DNA of 29,091 nucleotides from Syncephalis fuscata (lineage: Eukaryota > Zoopagomycota > Zoopagomycetes > Zoopagales > Piptocephalidaceae), in the NCBI GenBank assembly GCA_025786725.1, contig JAHLTZ010000093.1:1-29091 (forward strand). Reading direction: 5' to 3'. Below the pieces are notes generated by a model, which had not been told where the DNA came from, did not search any database, and worked only from the letters and a program-made list of their open reading frames with translations. Numbering within the stretch: position 1 is the stretch's first letter; each line of letters begins with the position of its first letter. Shown piece after piece: positions 4,042-26,500 of this stretch. The translations under genes and the position numbers were made by a program.

Positions 4042-4124
4042 GGCAGTTTCAGGCGGTTAGGATTAGCCACCATTTGAATGATGGTAGTTTCAGGTGGTTT
4101 GGATTAGCCACCATTTGCATGATG
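4042..4124. repeat. Two-copy tandem repeat, about 41 nt
   Basis: Two adjacent copies (about 4042-4083 and 4084-4124) share the core 'GATTAGCCACCATTTG' followed by ATGATGG, with a few substitutions. No coding potential is seen. Confidence 0.8.
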
Positions 4125-4350
4125 GCAGTTGCACAGCATGTAGCATGATATGCATGAATGTGATGCATTTGTAAATTCAAAGCAATGATTGCCCCATAAC
4201 AATGAGCATAGTTTTGAATGAAATGCATGCATGTACCAATCAACACATCTTATAATTTAAAAATTACATCTAATTTATGTATGGCAGTAAAAACCTGTAT
4301 AAAATACCAGTTTGATACATTAAGCTTGTTTTTGCATCAGTATTGTGTGT

Positions 4351-4830
4351 TATTTTGTATGCATGCAGATATTGAGGACCGAACCAGTAGAAATAGCAGC
4401 AAAAACATTATTATCATTTTTACAAAACCAAACAACAATATATTTGCTTTCACCAAATAGTCAAACCGTGTAACAGAAAATACAGGCTAATATACCTATC
4501 TCTATTGCATATGTACTGGATTATTACCATTGCCACAGTACTCGTGCAAATAACTGACAGATTGAAGTAAAGACCAGGCAGGCTATGTATTATTTTGTAT
4601 GCATGCAGATATTGAGGACCGAGTCATTCAGTGGAAGCAATAGCAAGGCATCATTTTTTGTTTTCACAAAGTCAAACAATATCTTGCTTTCACCAAATAG
4701 TTAAGCCGTGTAATAAAAAACAGGATACTGTACATGTCTCTATCGCATATGTACTGCTCATTGGGATTGCCGCGTTATCTGTGTAAATGCCGAGAAGGTT
4801 AAATCAAAGGTTGGCAGATTGAAATCAAAA
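4351..4830. repeat. Diverged tandem duplication with 240-nt period
   Basis: Copy A starts at 4351 and copy B at 4591. Both open with the same 30 nt, beginning 'TATTTTGTATGCATGCAGAT', and share later blocks such as 'CTTTCACCAAATAG' and 'GCATATGTACTG' in the same order. The rest has diverged by substitutions and small indels. There is no open frame common to both copies, so this is a non-coding duplication upstream of the microexon gene. Confidence 0.85.
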
Positions 4831-4895
4831 CCGAGCAGGTTAAAATCAAGGCTGGCAGATTGAAACCTAGACCAAGCAGATTAAATCAAGGCTGG
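4814..4895. repeat. About 40-nt tandem repeats at the end of copy B
   Basis: Units of about 40-41 nt begin 'GGCAGATTGAAA' at 4814 and 4855, each containing an AGCAG-TTAAA-TCAAGGCT block. A partial unit lies at about 4796-4813 and a related fragment at about 4557-4585 in copy A. Confidence 0.7.
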
Positions 4896-5040
4896 GAAGC
4901 ATGTTATCGCATTATGAATTTATTGGTACACGTGCGCCTTAAACCATTATTTGGATTGCTTTATTGGTTCATATTACACATCAATGATATATCTCGTATA
5001 CTGCAGCATGCTAGCATCTCAGCATTGCCGTAAGTACAAA

Positions 5041-5179
5041 TAGCCCCCAAAATATACACAACCAACTGCGATATCATCATCACACTCTACTCTCTGCTAA
5101 ACACACGCTAATCTCCACTCTATACCAACCACACTCTACTATCTCTTTTATTTGTTTGTCTTAACAAATTAATATCACC
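5041..5179 (+). promoter_or_regulatory. Pyrimidine-rich putative promoter / 5' leader of the microexon gene
   Basis: The stretch immediately before the ATG at 5180 is C/T-rich with repeated CACTCTAC elements (5082-5091 and 5131-5139), unlike the AT-rich flanks. The ATG has an A at -3 (TCACCATGA), a good eukaryotic start context. Transcription start is not determined. Confidence 0.4.
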
Positions 5180-7873
5180 ATGAAGCTTTCCATTGCCGTT
5201 GTTTGCATCATTGTTGTGGCTTTGATAGCCGCTACAACCATGGTGGATGCTAATCCAGCCTTAGTTCGTCGTTATGGTATGTTACAATAACAATAAACAT
5301 AATAGCATTTGTTTATTAACAATATTTTTAATTAATAATTATAATAGAGCGTAAGTAACACTATATATTAGCTGACTATGCATTAATTATATATCATGTA
5401 ACGTGTGCATCAACAAATAAATATCAATAGCTGGTAGGTTGCATTACATATTAACATCAATAAAACATATACTAATTATGTATCATGTATTGTATCGATC
5501 AACAAATCAATATTAGGCAATTGTAAGTTGTATTGTATAGTAATTGGTTACTCACTAATTACATGCTATGCACCATGTGTATCAACAACTCAATACTAAT
5601 AGGCGGTAAGCGATATTGTATATTAGTTGATTATAAATTAATTATATACCATGTATTGTGTATATCACAACCTAATGCCATAGATGGTAAGGTGTATTGT
5701 GTATTAATTAATTATGCCCTAATTATATATCATGTGCCGTGTATATCAACAAATCAATACTAATAGCATGTAAGTGATATTATATATTGACTGAGTATTG
5801 GCTAATTGTATATTATGTGCTGTGTGTATCAATAACTTGATATTAATAGGCGGTAAGTAGCATTGTATGTGCTGGCTTATAAATTAATTGTGTCATGCAT
5901 TGTGTATCAATAACTGCTGGAATAGTTAGTAAGTAACACTGCATATTCACCGACTATTCACTAATTATATATTATGTACTGTGCATGTATCAACAATTTA
6001 ATATTAATAGCTAGTAAGTCGTATTATATATTTATTAATTACTCTCTAATTATATCCATGTACTGTGTGTATTAACAAACATTAATAGAATGTAAGTAGC
6101 ATGGTATATTAGTTAGCTATTAGCTAATTACATATCGTGTATTGCGTGTATCAATAACCTAATATTAATAGGCGGTAAGTAATACCATATATTGACTGGA
6201 TATATATTAACTATATTATTTACTGATTGTACCAATTGTTTAATATTAATAGAGAGTAAGTGGTAGTGTATATTAATTAACTATATATTAACTATACTAT
6301 TTACTGATTGCACCAATTGTTTAATATTAATAGAGAGTAAGTGGTAGTGTATATTAACTAACTATATATTAACAATGCTATTTACTGATTGTACCAATTG
6401 TTTAATATTAATAGCCAGTAAGTAATATTGTATATTAATTGACTATACGTTAATAATAATAATTAATTATTGTACCGATTGCTTAATATTGATAGTTAGT
6501 AAGTAATATTGTATATTAACTAACTATATATTAACAATGCTATTTACTGATTGTACCAATTATTTGATATTAATAGGATGTAGGTTGTATTGTATATTAA
6601 TTAAATACTCCCTAATTACATGATATTTATTGCTAATATTAATTTTTTAATATTAATAGTCAGTAAGTAATATTGTATATTAAATGACTATACATTAACT
6701 ATGCTATTTACTGATTGTACCAATTGTTTAATATTAATAGTGAGTAAGTGGTACTGTATATCAATGAACTATACGCTAATCATGCTATTTACTGATTGTA
6801 CCAATTGTTTAATATTAATAGAATGTAAGTAATATTGTATATTAACTAACTATACATTAACTATGCTATTTACTGATTGTACCAATTGTTTAATATTAAT
6901 AGGGAGTAAGTGGTACTGTATATCAATGAACTATACGCTAATCATGCTATTTACTGATTGTACCAATTGTTTAATATTAATAGAATGTAAGTAGTATTGC
7001 ATATTAACTAACTATACATTAACTATGCTATTCATTGATTGTACCAATTGTTTAATATTAATAGGCAGTAAGTAGTATTGTGTATTAATTAACTATACAT
7101 TAACTATACTATTTACTAATTGTAACAATTGTTTAATATTAATAGAATGTAAGTAGTATTGTGTATTAATTAACTATATATTAACTATGCTATTTACTGA
7201 TTGTAACAATTGTTTAATATTAATAGATGGTAAGTAGTATTGCATATTAACTAACTATATATTAACTATGCTATTTACTGATGATACCGGTTATTTAATA
7301 TTAATAGAGAGTAAGTGGTATTGTATATCAATGAACTACACATTAATTATATACTACGTACTGTATACGTTAACAAATTAATAGATTGTAAGTGATATTG
7401 TCTATTAATTGGCTATGTACTAATCACATGCTATTTACTGTATGCATTAATAATTTAATATAATAGGCAGTAAGTTGTATTGTGTATTAACTGAATATGC
7501 ACTAACTCTATACCATGCGTTGTGTATATCAATAACTTAATATAATAGAACGTAAGTAATATTATAGGTTAGTGGACTATGCATTAATTTTATACCATGC
7601 ACTGATATATCAACAACTCAATATAACAGAATGTAAGTTATATTGTATATTAGTTGACTATGAGCTAATCACATGCTATTACTGTGTGTACCAATAACTT
7701 ACTACTAATAGGGTGTAAGTTGTATTGCGTATTAACTGAATATGCACTAATTACATGTTATACGCCATGTGTATTAACAACTTAATATAATAGGCAGTAA
7801 GTAGTATTGTGTATTGATGGCTCATGCATTAATTATATGACATATAATATATTTATTTGTAAATACAGCATAA
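5180..7873 (+). CDS. Secreted cysteine-rich peptide precursor encoded by one signal exon plus 31 tandem microexons
   Basis: Exon 1 (5180-5276) encodes a signal peptide (MKLS, then a hydrophobic core to about residue 24) and a short pro-segment NPALVRRY, ending in phase 1. The following microexons start at 5348, 5431, 5517, 5603, 5684, 5767, 5850, 5926, 6011, 6089, 6172, 6253, 6334, 6415, 6496, 6577, 6660, 6741, 6822, 6903, 6984, 7065, 7146, 7227, 7308, 7385, 7467, 7549, 7630, 7712 and 7794. Each is 3 nt except 5517-5522 (6 nt). The last exon starts at 7869 and supplies the stop TAA at 7871-7873. Every microexon lies between a TAG (once CAG) acceptor and a GTAAGT-like donor. The joined frame is 198 nt: 65 codons plus stop. 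The part after exon 1 has 33 residues, with Cys at 37, 40, 44, 55, 60 and 64 (C-X2-C-X3-C-X10-C-X4-C-X3-C), all encoded by TGC, and several Lys. The Arg-Arg at 30-31 is a likely Kex2 site, so the microexons would encode virtually the whole mature peptide. No family is recognised. An effector or antimicrobial role is possible but unproven. Confidence 0.85.
5277..7868 (+). repeat. Tandem array of 32 related short introns, about 81-nt period, separated by single-codon exons
   Basis: Thirty-two GT-AG introns share a common layout: GTAAGT, then TATTGTATATTA-like sequence, a CTAAC/TTAAC/CTAAT region, and an AATATTAATAG acceptor. From 6172 to 7308 consecutive microexons are exactly 81 nt apart except one 83-nt step (78-nt introns); flanking units vary from 75 to 86. 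The introns at 6744-6821 and 6906-6983 read as identical, and 6825-6902 and 6987-7064 differ at only a few positions, which marks a recent two-unit duplication. Donor variants are GTATGT (exon 1), GTAGGT (units 2 and 16), GTAAGC (unit 4) and GTAAGG (unit 5). Confidence 0.9.
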
Positions 7874-10316: not shown

Positions 10317-13300
10317 TTACGAAGGCAAATGCGGTGGCTTTTCCAAATGATTAGAAGGGAAACAAAGAATGGGTATTGATGGATGAGGAGAAGGTGGTTG
10401 AGATGATAAGGGCACATGACTATGATTAGCAACACTTTTATGTGAAGTAGATGTTCTCAAAGAGGATGAGGAGGAGGAGGAGGAGGAGGGGAAAGGCAGT
10501 GGTAGCGTTAAAGCTGAAGTGGTAGAGGATGTTAACATGGTTGTAGATCGATCTGTATTGATACATTCCATAAGAGGCGGCTTCTTTTGTTCACAAAGAT
10601 CTAACTGTGCCTTAAATTCATTGCGACTAACAACTACCGTATGAGCCACATCAGAAACGGCACGAGCACGACCTTGCATTCCTTTAGTCGTGGTAGTAAC
10701 ATTTAATAAATTGGTCAAATGCTTAGTCGTATTTCTAAAACTACCATTCTGTCCATTATTTATGCTGCTGTTGCCGGTATTACTACTAAGACAAGCGGCA
10801 GTCAGTGGCGAATAACGCGGTTCGCCGGGGCCATCACAAACTACTTGTAGCTTCTCACTACCATCGGGTACACGATGGGAGAACACAACACGGATATGTT
10901 TGTATAGATAGATACGACCACGGCTGGGCGAACAGACTTGCAATTGAATGGCATATCGTAGAACAGGTCGATTATTACCATTATTGCTTTGACTATTCGT
11001 GGTGGTAGTGGTGGTGGCATCGGATGCAGGCTGTGCATAAGACTTTTGTCGTATAAATGTTTTAGTGCCAATTGGCATGTCCGAAAAGTCATAAGGTACC
11101 AAGAATAGCTTAATCGCCGTTTTGTTAGGATTCTTAATGACCACTTGTAACTGCCCCGCAGTTGGAATACGATAACCAACCACACCATGTCGTGTAGCCG
11201 TTGACTTCTTTTGTTTTAATACATCAGCCGATGCATGTTCCAAATCGATATTACCAACATATGGGGTGGGTGCATCATCATCCTGCATATTGTAGAAGGT
11301 GGCCGGGAAGGGCAGATTAATGTGCGGTGGGCACTTTAACGATGATCGACAATTGCCTCGACCAAGTACACCAATTTGTGCAATAAATTCGATTGGCCGT
11401 GATGGCAGTGTTGACATACGTCCACTAAGAATAGATTCCTATAATATATTAATTAATTTAACTATCAACAATTCTATCTATTCCACTTACCTCATAACTA
11501 CCAATAAATGATCCAAATAATTCACCTGTTATACTGGCCCGTCGGTTCATAGAACGAGACGGATATGGACGGAGTGAATGTGATAGCGATAATGACAATC
11601 CATTATTACCTAGTGCATCGAATGAATTACGCAGTGGTGACGGTAACGTAGGTGATGTAGGTGTCACCACAGGTGGGCGTATTTGCATTACTGAACGAAA
11701 AGAATGCGGCATTAATTTGCCAGATGTCAATTCTTGTGATGATCTACCGGTAATAGTGTGGCTAGGCGATGAAATATACCGAGACGATGGCTGATTTAAA
11801 TCATTAAAATATGGTTTTGGTTCACCCAAACAATCAATAGTCTTTTTATACACAGAGTGATTATTACCATCGTCATCATCAGTGTTAATCGTATGATGAC
11901 GACAATTGTTGTCACCATCGTTATTTGTTTTTGTATGGTTATTAATAACAGTATTTTCATCTGGTAGTGATGGTAACAGTGGGGGTAAAGATGGTCCAGT
12001 TGATAAAATACCCTGGCTATTATTGTCTCGATCACGTAACATACGCGTTAGACCAGAAAGTGATCGTGTTAATGGCGCTGAACTGGATACGATCGATGGC
12101 AATAGATTATTTGACAGTGGTGTTTTTTCTACCAATGATGTTGAATTATCCTTTTCTGCTGTCACTTTAACCGTGTTGGATTTTGTTGATATCTCATTAC
12201 CAGAAGTATTATATTCCACAGTGTCTCGTCTGTTGCCGACTGCGTAAATGATAGTCGAGAACGGGCTAGTTGTGGTCGTTGGACACGAGCCAGCTTTAAT
12301 CGAGCCAATCTTTCCAACTGCACAGCTATATCTGCATTAGGTGGGGGTGTTCCTGGTCGGGGTGGTGAATTAGCGCGCATCTTTGTCATTGATGGTCTAA
12401 TTTCCCTTGGTTGACTATTAGACCAAGATGTATGTTGCTGATTTACAGATATCGATGGTGTAGATGCAGATGGTGGTGTTGGTAAACTTGGTGAGTTTGA
12501 TAAACGGCTATAATCATGTCTTGAGGCACCTTTAGGCAGTGTTTTATGGCGATTGACATCACGTAGTCCACCTACACTCGGATCATAGAGTAGACTAACT
12601 TTAAGGGCGCCTCGGAGTGCGACTGCTGGACGGAATGGATAGACAGTCAATTCCGAATTGGATACTACCCATCGTGGATGTAATGTATTATTCAACTCCT
12701 CATAATCATCATCATCATCATCCGTTAAGGCTTCCTCCATGCCTAGTAATCTAATTGCACAGCCTAGATCATTTTTGGCCAATATGGCATCATGTAGTGC
12801 TGATTGAACCGGTAATAGGCGCACTTGCGAGAAAAGCGATTGTGCTAACAAAATAAATTCTGTTTCATCCGTTTCACTAGATGTATTTTGTTTATTTGAA
12901 TGGTGATGAGTGACACTGTAGATATTATAATATTATAATTCATTAGTACAATTATAGATTATATTTGATCTGCCCTTTAGTTGTAATTATATATTATTAA
13001 TCATAATAACATCAATCCATTCAATTGTTCCACGCTCTCTTCTCTTTCTTTCCGTTTTGTGTTATGACTCACCTTGGTGTATATTGAATAGTCCAACGCT
13101 CTAATAATGCTTGGTCACATCGACGATATACATCAAGTTCAAAAACTCGATCTTTACTTGTTATACTATCAGCTGTAGCCTTTTCCTTTATGCTTGAAAT
13201 ACTATCCTGTTGAAGGCAGTCGGATATAGAGCGATGGCTGTTGTCAAGATGGCCGTGATATGCATCGCCGTGTATTATAGGTAACGATAAGGATGGTTTT

Positions 13301-15474: not shown

Positions 15475-16676
15475 TTATTTGTTTGTAGTTTTTGTCTTCT
15501 TTAATCTTTTACTTGATGGTAATAATGATGACGATGATACAGTATGATCTAGTGTTGTAGCATTTTTTAATTGATGACATGCTGAACACATGAGCGCCAA
15601 TGGCTTATTGATAAGCGTACAGACTGTGCATGACCACGGTGTAACTTCCTCTTTGATAATAACATCATCAATGGTGCTATTCTCTAATAATATTGGCGAT
15701 GTTGACTGTGGTGGAGATTTTCGCTTAGTGTGTCGTAAAACGGCGGCCATTGCTGCCGCTTCATGAGCTGTAGCATCACTTGTAGATGACATTGTTGCTA
15801 TTGATTTGCTTAAAGCTTTTGCTATGGCTATTTCTTCATCACCCTCTTCTAACGCCATTTGCTCTTCTGTAGCGTCACCGCCACACCATGTGGCATCGAG
15901 TAGGCCGCGTCGTTGAATTGCGGCCATGGCAGCCATTTGAGCGGGCGAACAATGTAGTTTCCACCGATCTACAGCACTTTGGCTTTGATTTTTACCTAGT
16001 CGACTACCATGTCCTGCGAATTTAACAAAGGTAGTATTGGTATTACTACTTGTACTTGATGCGGCCGTGTATCCATTTTTCATTAATAATTGCTCGCATT
16101 CATCTGTTAACTTGTCTAGTAATTTATAAAAATTGCTATCATGTGGGCCATGAACTATCAATTATTAATTAATTAATAGCCAATAAAATAATTAATTGCA
16201 TTTTTAAACTTACCGATATGTGTTAATCTATTAATTTACATATCATTTCCTTAATAATAGCTAATAAAAATCAACATTACTTACTCATGCAATAGTGTGC
16301 CTAATAAACTTTCATAATCAATGAATTGGCGTGGATTAGAGGCATATCGTAGGCGAATGCGTATTTCTTGACCTTTATTTACATTGATGCCTAAAATACT
16401 ATTAAAGTCTATAATATAATCTATATCTAACATACCAAGTAAATTTTCATTCTTTGGTAGGAATTCGCGTAATAACCCAACATGCCAGTTATACTTTGCC
16501 ATAATTGGCTGTACCTAGTAAAAGAGTTGTATATTGGTGAGTCATACAAAGGAATCTATAGACATTACTTGTTGTGCAAGCTGTTGTAATAAAGCAGTTG
16601 CTTCCGAGTAAAGCGGCTGGCGTTTCAGCACCATACATTGAAAGATTAATGGCGTGTCATTCTTGGCTATCGTCAT
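15475..16676 (-). CDS. Wss1-like WLM-domain metalloprotease for DNA-protein crosslink repair
   Basis: Four exons: 16569-16676, 16285-16514, a 14-nt microexon 16214-16227, and 15475-16154. The joined frame is exactly 1,032 nt (343 aa). The WLM domain runs from about residue 15 ('LKRQPLYSEATALLQQLAQQ', then VQPIM) through 'WHVGLLREFLPKNENLLG' to the zinc-protease signature HELTHIVHGPHD (residues 112-123). The latter is rebuilt only when the 14-nt exon is included. It continues 'NFYKLLDKLTDECEQLL', and FAGHGSRLG matches the basic loop after the catalytic domain. C-terminal parts: a UIM-like helix 'DEEIAIAKALSKSI' (about 223-236), a SUMO-interacting-like IDDVII between acidic residues (about 279-284), and a RanBP2-type zinc finger W-x-C-x2-C-x10-C-x2-C (Cys 293, 296, 307, 310). 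Wss1/SPRTN-type proteases digest proteins crosslinked to DNA, guided by SUMO or ubiquitin. The start ATG at 16676 directly precedes the conserved domain. Confidence 0.88.

Positions 16677-17297: not shown

Positions 17298-26500
<9,203 letters not shown>

Follow-up and report, generated by a model that had tools for sequence, protein, structure and literature searches.

Can the mature part of a protein be encoded almost wholly by exons of a single codon? A locus of Syncephalis fuscata raises this question. Syncephalis is an obligate mycoparasite according to an excerpt on the genus (PMC6784888), and S. fuscata, a mould parasitic on other moulds, is placed in the Zoopagales. The locus lies in a stretch of 29,091 nucleotides from one contig, to which we refer as the window. 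A first-pass annotation, made from the sequence alone, had read it as a gene of consecutive single-codon exons that follow a signal-peptide exon. Our analysis extends this view, in that the gene belongs to a large family and is predicted to have codons that straddle its introns and to yield a six-cysteine peptide. The parts of the locus are as follows.

4591–5179, plus strand: 5' flank, common to family members; inferred promoter and 5' UTR
5180–5276, plus strand: exon 1, 97 nt; signal peptide, MKLSIAVVCIIVVALIAATTMVDANPALVRRY and one further base (phase 1), with a dibasic RR close to the 3' end
5277–5347, plus strand: intron 1, 71 nt, GTATGT...TAG, with its donor at 5277
5348–5350, plus strand: microexon 1, AGC
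5431–5433, plus strand: microexon 2, CTG
5517–5522, plus strand: microexon 3, GCAATT, the sole 6-nt microexon; an exon of 6 nt occupies a similar place in many relatives
5603–7551, plus strand: microexons 4–28 (25 exons of 3 nt each), with intervening introns of 73–82 nt; starts at 5603, 5684, 5767, 5850, 5926, 6011, 6089, 6172, 6253, 6334, 6415, 6496, 6577, 6660, 6741, 6822, 6903, 6984, 7065, 7146, 7227, 7308, 7385, 7467 and 7549
7630–7632, plus strand: microexon 29, AAT, the sole microexon preceded by a CAG acceptor
7712–7714, plus strand: microexon 30, GGT
7794–7796, plus strand: microexon 31, GCA
7797–7868, plus strand: intron 32, with TAAATACAG at its 3' end and a CAG acceptor ending at 7868
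7869–7873, plus strand: terminal exon; CA forms the final two bases of the last codon, the stop codon TAA is at 7871–7873, and the exon runs into a 3' UTR common to intronless paralogs

The 31 acceptor-exon-donor sites that the first-pass annotation had described were recovered on the plus strand between 5348 and 7796, 30 of them with an exon of 3 nt and one with an exon of 6 nt, and so were its 32 introns, which span 5277–7868 after the signal-peptide exon at 5180–5276. Its description of the splice sites, TAG acceptors with one CAG and GTAAGT-type donors, was equally accurate (acceptors TAG 30 and CAG 1; donors GTAAGT 27, GTAGGT 2, GTAAGC 1 and GTAAGG 1). The strict pattern TAG-NNN-GTAAGT had 25 matches in the window, all on the plus strand and all within the array, as compared to a mean of 0.17 and a maximum of 1 in 100 dinucleotide shuffles of the window. 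When the window was scanned with a profile of the introns, 31 of the 33 matches fell inside the array, and the two outside it were weak (E 0.67 and 0.9).

Tandem Repeats Finder reported an 81-bp tandem array at 6160–7350 (82% match, 14.7 copies). This result would suit a non-coding 81-bp minisatellite with chance splice-like motifs, in which the true gene simply joins exon 1 to the last exon. Such a repeat, however, would not conserve both flanks of each NNN while the NNN itself varies, nor would triplets that lie far apart join into codons that are free of stops, rich in cysteine and matched by an intronless paralog. We consider it exceedingly improbable, and a chance minisatellite was rejected on codon order, on the rates in paralog pairs, on the paralog match and on the contrast between introns and exons within genes, each of which is described below.

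To learn how far the exon length holds beyond this locus, we turned to the whole assembly (28.95 Mb), in which TAATAG-NNN-GTAAGT had 2,716 matches and the reversed pattern 5. At other spacings the strict motif was found 35 times (control 46) with 1–2 nt, 25 times (control 36) with 4–5 nt and 15 times (control 7) with 6 nt; zero-length sites, as in recursive splicing, were not above control genome-wide (7 versus 9), with one likely case in the locus L062. We also measured, at 24 loci of which some represent one and the same gene, how far GTAAGT lies from the closest ATAG before it; the distance was exactly 3 nt in 334 of 384 instances and 2 nt in 2, and it was never 0, 1 or 4–43 nt. A parse of 18 loci that allowed exons of any length from 1 to 60 nt yielded 361 exons, 334 of 3 nt, 18 of 6 nt and 9 of other lengths. 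Similarly, twelve longer loci gave 335 exons of 3 nt, 15 of 6 nt and 20 of other lengths, the last mostly within disrupted stretches of F041, L061, L062 and C1a. Eight genes could be parsed end to end or nearly so and had 242 microexons for 144 strict motifs, and this ratio, extrapolated to the whole genome, would give about 4,500 microexons. The donors of these eight genes were GTAAGT at 195 of 242 sites and GC at 4, and the acceptors were TAG (235), CAG (5) or AAG (2). By their GT-AG or GC-AG ends and conserved 5' site, the array introns would be of the spliceosomal U2 type.

The window gene belongs to a family of at least 59 genes that share the first-intron donor motif in the assembly (control 0). 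This motif coincided with a match to exon 1 in 57 cases, of which 55 were in phase 1 and 2 had a first exon ending out of phase. Relatives of exon 1 are more numerous, at least 150 in the assembly (304 candidates; the 150 that were scored all matched, E ≤ 1.6e-6). The terminal motif, TAAATACAG-NN-TAATCRANGG, was present 53 times (reversed control 0), and 45 of these copies had an exon-1 match 0.7–3.7 kb upstream on the same strand. The microexon genes of the family have 23–37 microexons and a median intron length of 78 nt, and the introns of all arrays form one similar set, across genes and across positions. Two related arrays, C1:474393-479590 and C1:530062-534437, lie about 55 kb apart in opposite orientation; one of them, C1a, is disrupted.

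If the microexons are joined into a reading frame, their phase and order should leave a trace in the codons. For this analysis we used 14 loci, without the disrupted C1a, the near-copies L048 and L057, and L054 (one exon parsed); exons other than 3 or 6 nt were dropped and the runs cut there, and three of the later runs have an assumed phase. Joined in phase 1, the 14 genes gave 368 codons with no stop, as compared to a mean of 22.6 stops (sd 3.5) in 5,000 shuffles of exon order, and 64 cysteine codons, as compared to a mean of 29.0 (sd 3.9, maximum 45). The last base of an exon was coupled to the first two bases of the next by 0.418 bits (shuffles 0.101, sd 0.019). In the other phases there were 5 stops (phase 0) and 40 stops (phase 2), and phase 2 also had a mild excess of cysteine (18 versus 12.0, P 0.019), which counts against the phase-1 specificity. 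Four independent tests support the earlier reading of the locus as a gene of consecutive single-codon exons: the genome-wide exon length; the joint absence of stops and excess of cysteine, found only for in-order joins in phase 1; the gapless alignment of the spliced protein with an intronless paralog whose stop and 3' end are the same; and splice sites that are kept between fast-changing codons.

The same junctions bear on whether microexons might be skipped freely, so that one gene gives rise to a large pool of peptides, as has been claimed for the schistosome MEG genes. All exons are symmetrical and of one phase, and the frame would survive skipping unless a stop arose, as it did at 22 of 253 junctions made by skipping a single exon. 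These junctions are not protected from stops, however, as random junctions gave 17.9 (sd 3.1) and true junctions 0 of 262; moreover, the cysteine spacing relies on the complete exon order. We regard combinatorial splicing as quite unlikely, and a design that tolerates skipping was rejected because stops are not depleted at skipped junctions. This lack of depletion suggests instead a favoured product in which all exons are spliced in order.

Spliced in this manner, the window gene is predicted to encode a product of 65 residues, MKLSIAVVCIIVVALIAATTMVDANPALVRRYEPGNCDACVTKCEKTIRFMKWKCKYENCKQWCT, of which exon 1 encodes the signal peptide through VRRY and the remainder is EPGNCDACVTKCEKTIRFMKWKCKYENCKQWCT, followed by the stop. 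Members of the family that were obtained via exon 1 or by search include eight with a mature part in one piece (L033, L034, L037, L039, L040, L044, L056 and L085, the last with a near-copy, L086), and L038 repeats L037. Most intronless members have 64–74 residues and one has 107, with paired cysteines. One of them, L085 (MKLSIAVVCTVVVALIATTTTMVDAKPNSSLIKPADCKACIKDCTRWWRLDYDKCRYKECREWCG, 65 residues), aligned to the mature part of the window peptide without a gap, at 38% identity over 32 residues and with six cysteines in register (E 0.028 in a whole-genome search). The score of this alignment was 89, and 10,000 shuffles of the exon order reached a mean of 20.0 and a maximum of 57. When nine microexon genes were compared with the eight intronless peptides, six scored above every one of 1,000 order shuffles or above all except one. 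The other three, F036, F041 and F050, did not (15, 60 and 138 of 1,000 shuffles reached their scores), and the spliced mature part of L063, used as a query, found no intronless copy. Across the family alignment (A1) the cysteines are spaced C-x2-C-x3-C and then C-x3/4-C, with few exceptions.

The family fits the description of secreted cysteine-rich effectors by its signal peptide, judged by eye, and its conserved cysteine spacing. L037 and the hypothetical protein BDF19DRAFT_453325 of S. fuscata agree at every one of 69 residues, and a profile search of 5.8 billion proteins, with a sensitivity bounded by shared 5-residue words, returned 11 matches at E ≤ 1, all from S. fuscata. Two of three family proteins had no Pfam match, and the third had one at E 0.14. 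The mature part of L085 was modelled with AlphaFold2 as a helical hairpin (helices 8–22, 26–33 and 35–38; mean pLDDT 75.2, pTM 0.49), for which Foldseek returned six matches in the PDB, all at E 6.5 or above. The public models of proteins from this family that we examined lack the microexons; three of them (P0002, P0003 and P0004) seem to read through into intron 1. Two others, P0008 and P0010, have the same signal exon ahead of mature parts that lack the six-cysteine pattern, as if one secretion exon were common to several peptide classes.

The intronless and microexon genes have the 5' flank, exon 1, the stop and the 3' UTR in common. When 700 bp upstream were aligned locally, the window gene was 81–89% identical to nine microexon and six intronless members; the similarity mostly extends to about −589, in F045 only to −228, and L063 was compared over 333 bp. 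A pure promoterless retrogene origin of the intronless copies was rejected because their 5' flanks align with that of the window gene over about 500 bp. These copies might have arisen by recombination with cDNA or might represent an ancestral intronless form, either of which would suit the sequences. A mobile intron could have been inserted at every codon of an intronless gene, which would make the intronless paralogs ancestral; in agreement with this, the introns are alike in all arrays and the intronless forms have the same peptide and flanks. Insertion would nevertheless leave the exact one-codon spacing and the single phase unexplained, both of which tandem duplication explains, and in a tree of the 5' flanks of 25 members the eight intronless ones require two changes and sit among the microexon genes (under a midpoint root that is unsure). 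Such intron gain appears unlikely, though conceivable.

To determine how the parts of the gene change, we counted differing sites in close paralog pairs. The pool comprised 8 of 11 pairs, leaving out L058-L059 (0/24 in microexons versus 1/478 in introns), C1a-C1b (5/51 versus 42/1292) and L063-L052, which are the same gene; a damaged copy is present in three of the eight (the window gene with L061, L058-L060 and F049-L047). Differences were found at 38 of 319 microexon sites (11.9%), 251 of 7281 intron sites (3.4%), 8 of 953 splice-site positions (0.8%) and 5 of 761 exon 1 sites (0.7%), with Fisher p values of 2e-10 for microexons versus introns and 9e-7 for splice sites, which vary four times less than intron interiors. 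The contrast between microexons and introns weakened when the two pairs of greatest divergence were set aside (13/220 versus 125/4964, p 0.005). Codons differed 31 times in seven pairs, 29 times with an altered residue and twice silently; 18 of the 29 came from the window gene and L061, one member of which is damaged, and the pair L042-L043 yielded just one codon for this count. Within genes, the exon bases next to intron copies that are at least 95% alike (12 pairs) were themselves 69% alike, and those next to intron copies 90–95% alike (59 pairs) were 33% alike, near the 29% of random bases.

Decay does not account for microexons that change faster than the introns, but either diversifying selection or the exchange of units can. 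These sequences would best be read as encoding effector-like peptides that are secreted, contain six cysteines, are subject to diversifying selection and are made of codon-sized modules. The arrays might instead be decaying or silent, an archive of codons that feeds expressed intronless genes by gene conversion. The 5' and 3' flanks common to intronless and microexon members could be taken in its favour, as could the fact that some arrays are broken. The absence of stops from the 368 codons and the conservation of splice sites are not expected of silent copies, however, and we judge such an archive to be very unlikely.

Among the broken arrays are two frame-broken copies, F036 (L036 + L079), with a 5-nt exon, and L058, with a 2-nt exon. 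C1a, L061 and F041 are disrupted, and L047 is without its first donor. The array of L061 is interrupted by unlike, insertion-like sequence about 0.5 kb past its 16th microexon, and that of F041 (L041 + L080) by insertion-like sequence after the 21st. In L062, between the microexons GCA and TTT, an acceptor apparently abuts GTAAGT directly, giving an exon of 0 nt as in recursive splice sites; this may mark the loss of a codon that left the frame intact.

Exon lengths, phase, order, the cysteine pattern, the paralogs and the rate contrast can be taken as established, and the putative microexon architecture appears as well supported as sequence allows. The locus very probably represents a working type of gene, encoding a secreted effector-like peptide of 65 residues from 31 microexons after the removal of 32 introns. 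We infer from these patterns the splicing in RNA, the order of removal, the secretion and the effector role, which is likely in view of the signal peptide, the cysteines, the size of the family and its rate of change, although neither Pfam nor the solved structures gave a significant match; the peptide would most likely act on the host fungus.

How could such exons be spliced? U1 and the factors of the 3' site could not jointly occupy an exon of 3 nt. All microexons being symmetrical and in phase 1, each codon would be split, its first base lying at the end of one exon and the other two at the start of the next. Each intron is short, resembles the others and carries GTAAGT, almost a perfect U1 site, and would be recognised as a unit (intron definition); adjacent introns would not be held simultaneously across 3 nt and would be removed in succession. 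The difficulty of defining 3-nt exons would be eased if the introns of about 78 nt were indeed recognised as units and neighbours removed in turn.

As to origin, an 81-bp unit of a 3-nt exon and a 78-nt intron would duplicate in tandem, and the codons gained would then be altered rapidly by selection. Duplicating an exon with its intron adds one codon and keeps the phase, which explains the exact spacing. We lean, somewhat cautiously, towards a broader reading of these arrays as a codon ladder, in which the single codon would be the unit of evolution, each walled by interchangeable introns of the same phase. Unequal exchange, safe for the frame, would add, remove or swap codons, and the parasite could retool its peptides freely at the price of some 32 ordered removals for a 65-residue protein.

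Several known systems share parts of this architecture. Introners are similar introns that occur in many unrelated genes, and recursive splicing sites have an acceptor almost immediately before a donor. The S. fuscata introns differ from introners in lying head to tail, one codon apart, and in the arrays examined they fall within one gene family; they differ from recursive sites in that the exon is 3 nt rather than 0. Fungal small secreted cysteine-rich effectors have a signal peptide and paired cysteines and form large families; unlike them, the S. fuscata family is without a Pfam match, and its protein matches are S. fuscata's own alone. The presence of many similar introns in one genome is a point of likeness to introners and duplicated introns, as excerpted from PMC8469720.

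Excerpts on the schistosome MEG genes describe exons of 6–81 bp (3–81 in the abstract), mostly of 15 bp, with 10–20 per gene and introns of 0.1–5 kb (PMC10526429), and a signal peptide, many short symmetrical exons, secretion and a fast-evolving mature part (PMC10526429, PMC4350168). The S. fuscata genes likewise begin with an exon for a signal peptide and have the bulk of their coding sequence in exons that are short and symmetrical. In contrast to the MEG genes, their internal exons are nearly all of 3 nt, number 23–37 per gene and are separated by introns that are alike and about 78 nt long; homology to MEG proteins was not found in the profile search of 5.8 billion proteins, at the sensitivity that shared 5-residue words allow. 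For the aphid bicycle genes, an excerpt gives about 17 exons on average, with internal exons in phase 2, and more than 100 microexons for megacycle genes; many small internal exons of the same phase, putative secreted effectors and fast change are common to both systems (PMC9168663). The S. fuscata exons differ in being single-codon and in phase 1, and their introns in being tandem repeats. An excerpted account of Syncephalis genomes does not mention introns (PMC10386755), and our literature search, which left preprints and most subscription journals outside, found no published account of serial single-codon exons or of such genes in Syncephalis. The family would appear to be an extreme form of microexon gene, and a new one.

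If RNA agrees, these genes would show how small exons used in series can be, with an entire mature protein made from one-codon exons, and its codons divided by introns, in dozens of genes. They would also offer a natural test for intron definition and for the order of intron removal, an evolutionary case in which introns are more conserved than the codons between them, and a class of gene overlooked by standard annotation, as the deposited models without microexons illustrate.

The window genes beside the microexon gene are of ordinary types. A DUF4210/Chromosome_seg protein lies at 10317–12851 (minus strand), a WLM protein, whose RanBP-type zinc finger scored under its cut-off, at 15475–16161 (minus strand), and at 19338–25414 (plus strand) a TOR-like kinase that has HEAT, FAT and kinase regions. 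Upstream of the microexon gene there are 41-bp tandem repeats at 4042–4130 and 4790–4895, and a block resembling the repeat at 4042–4130 is also found upstream of L086.
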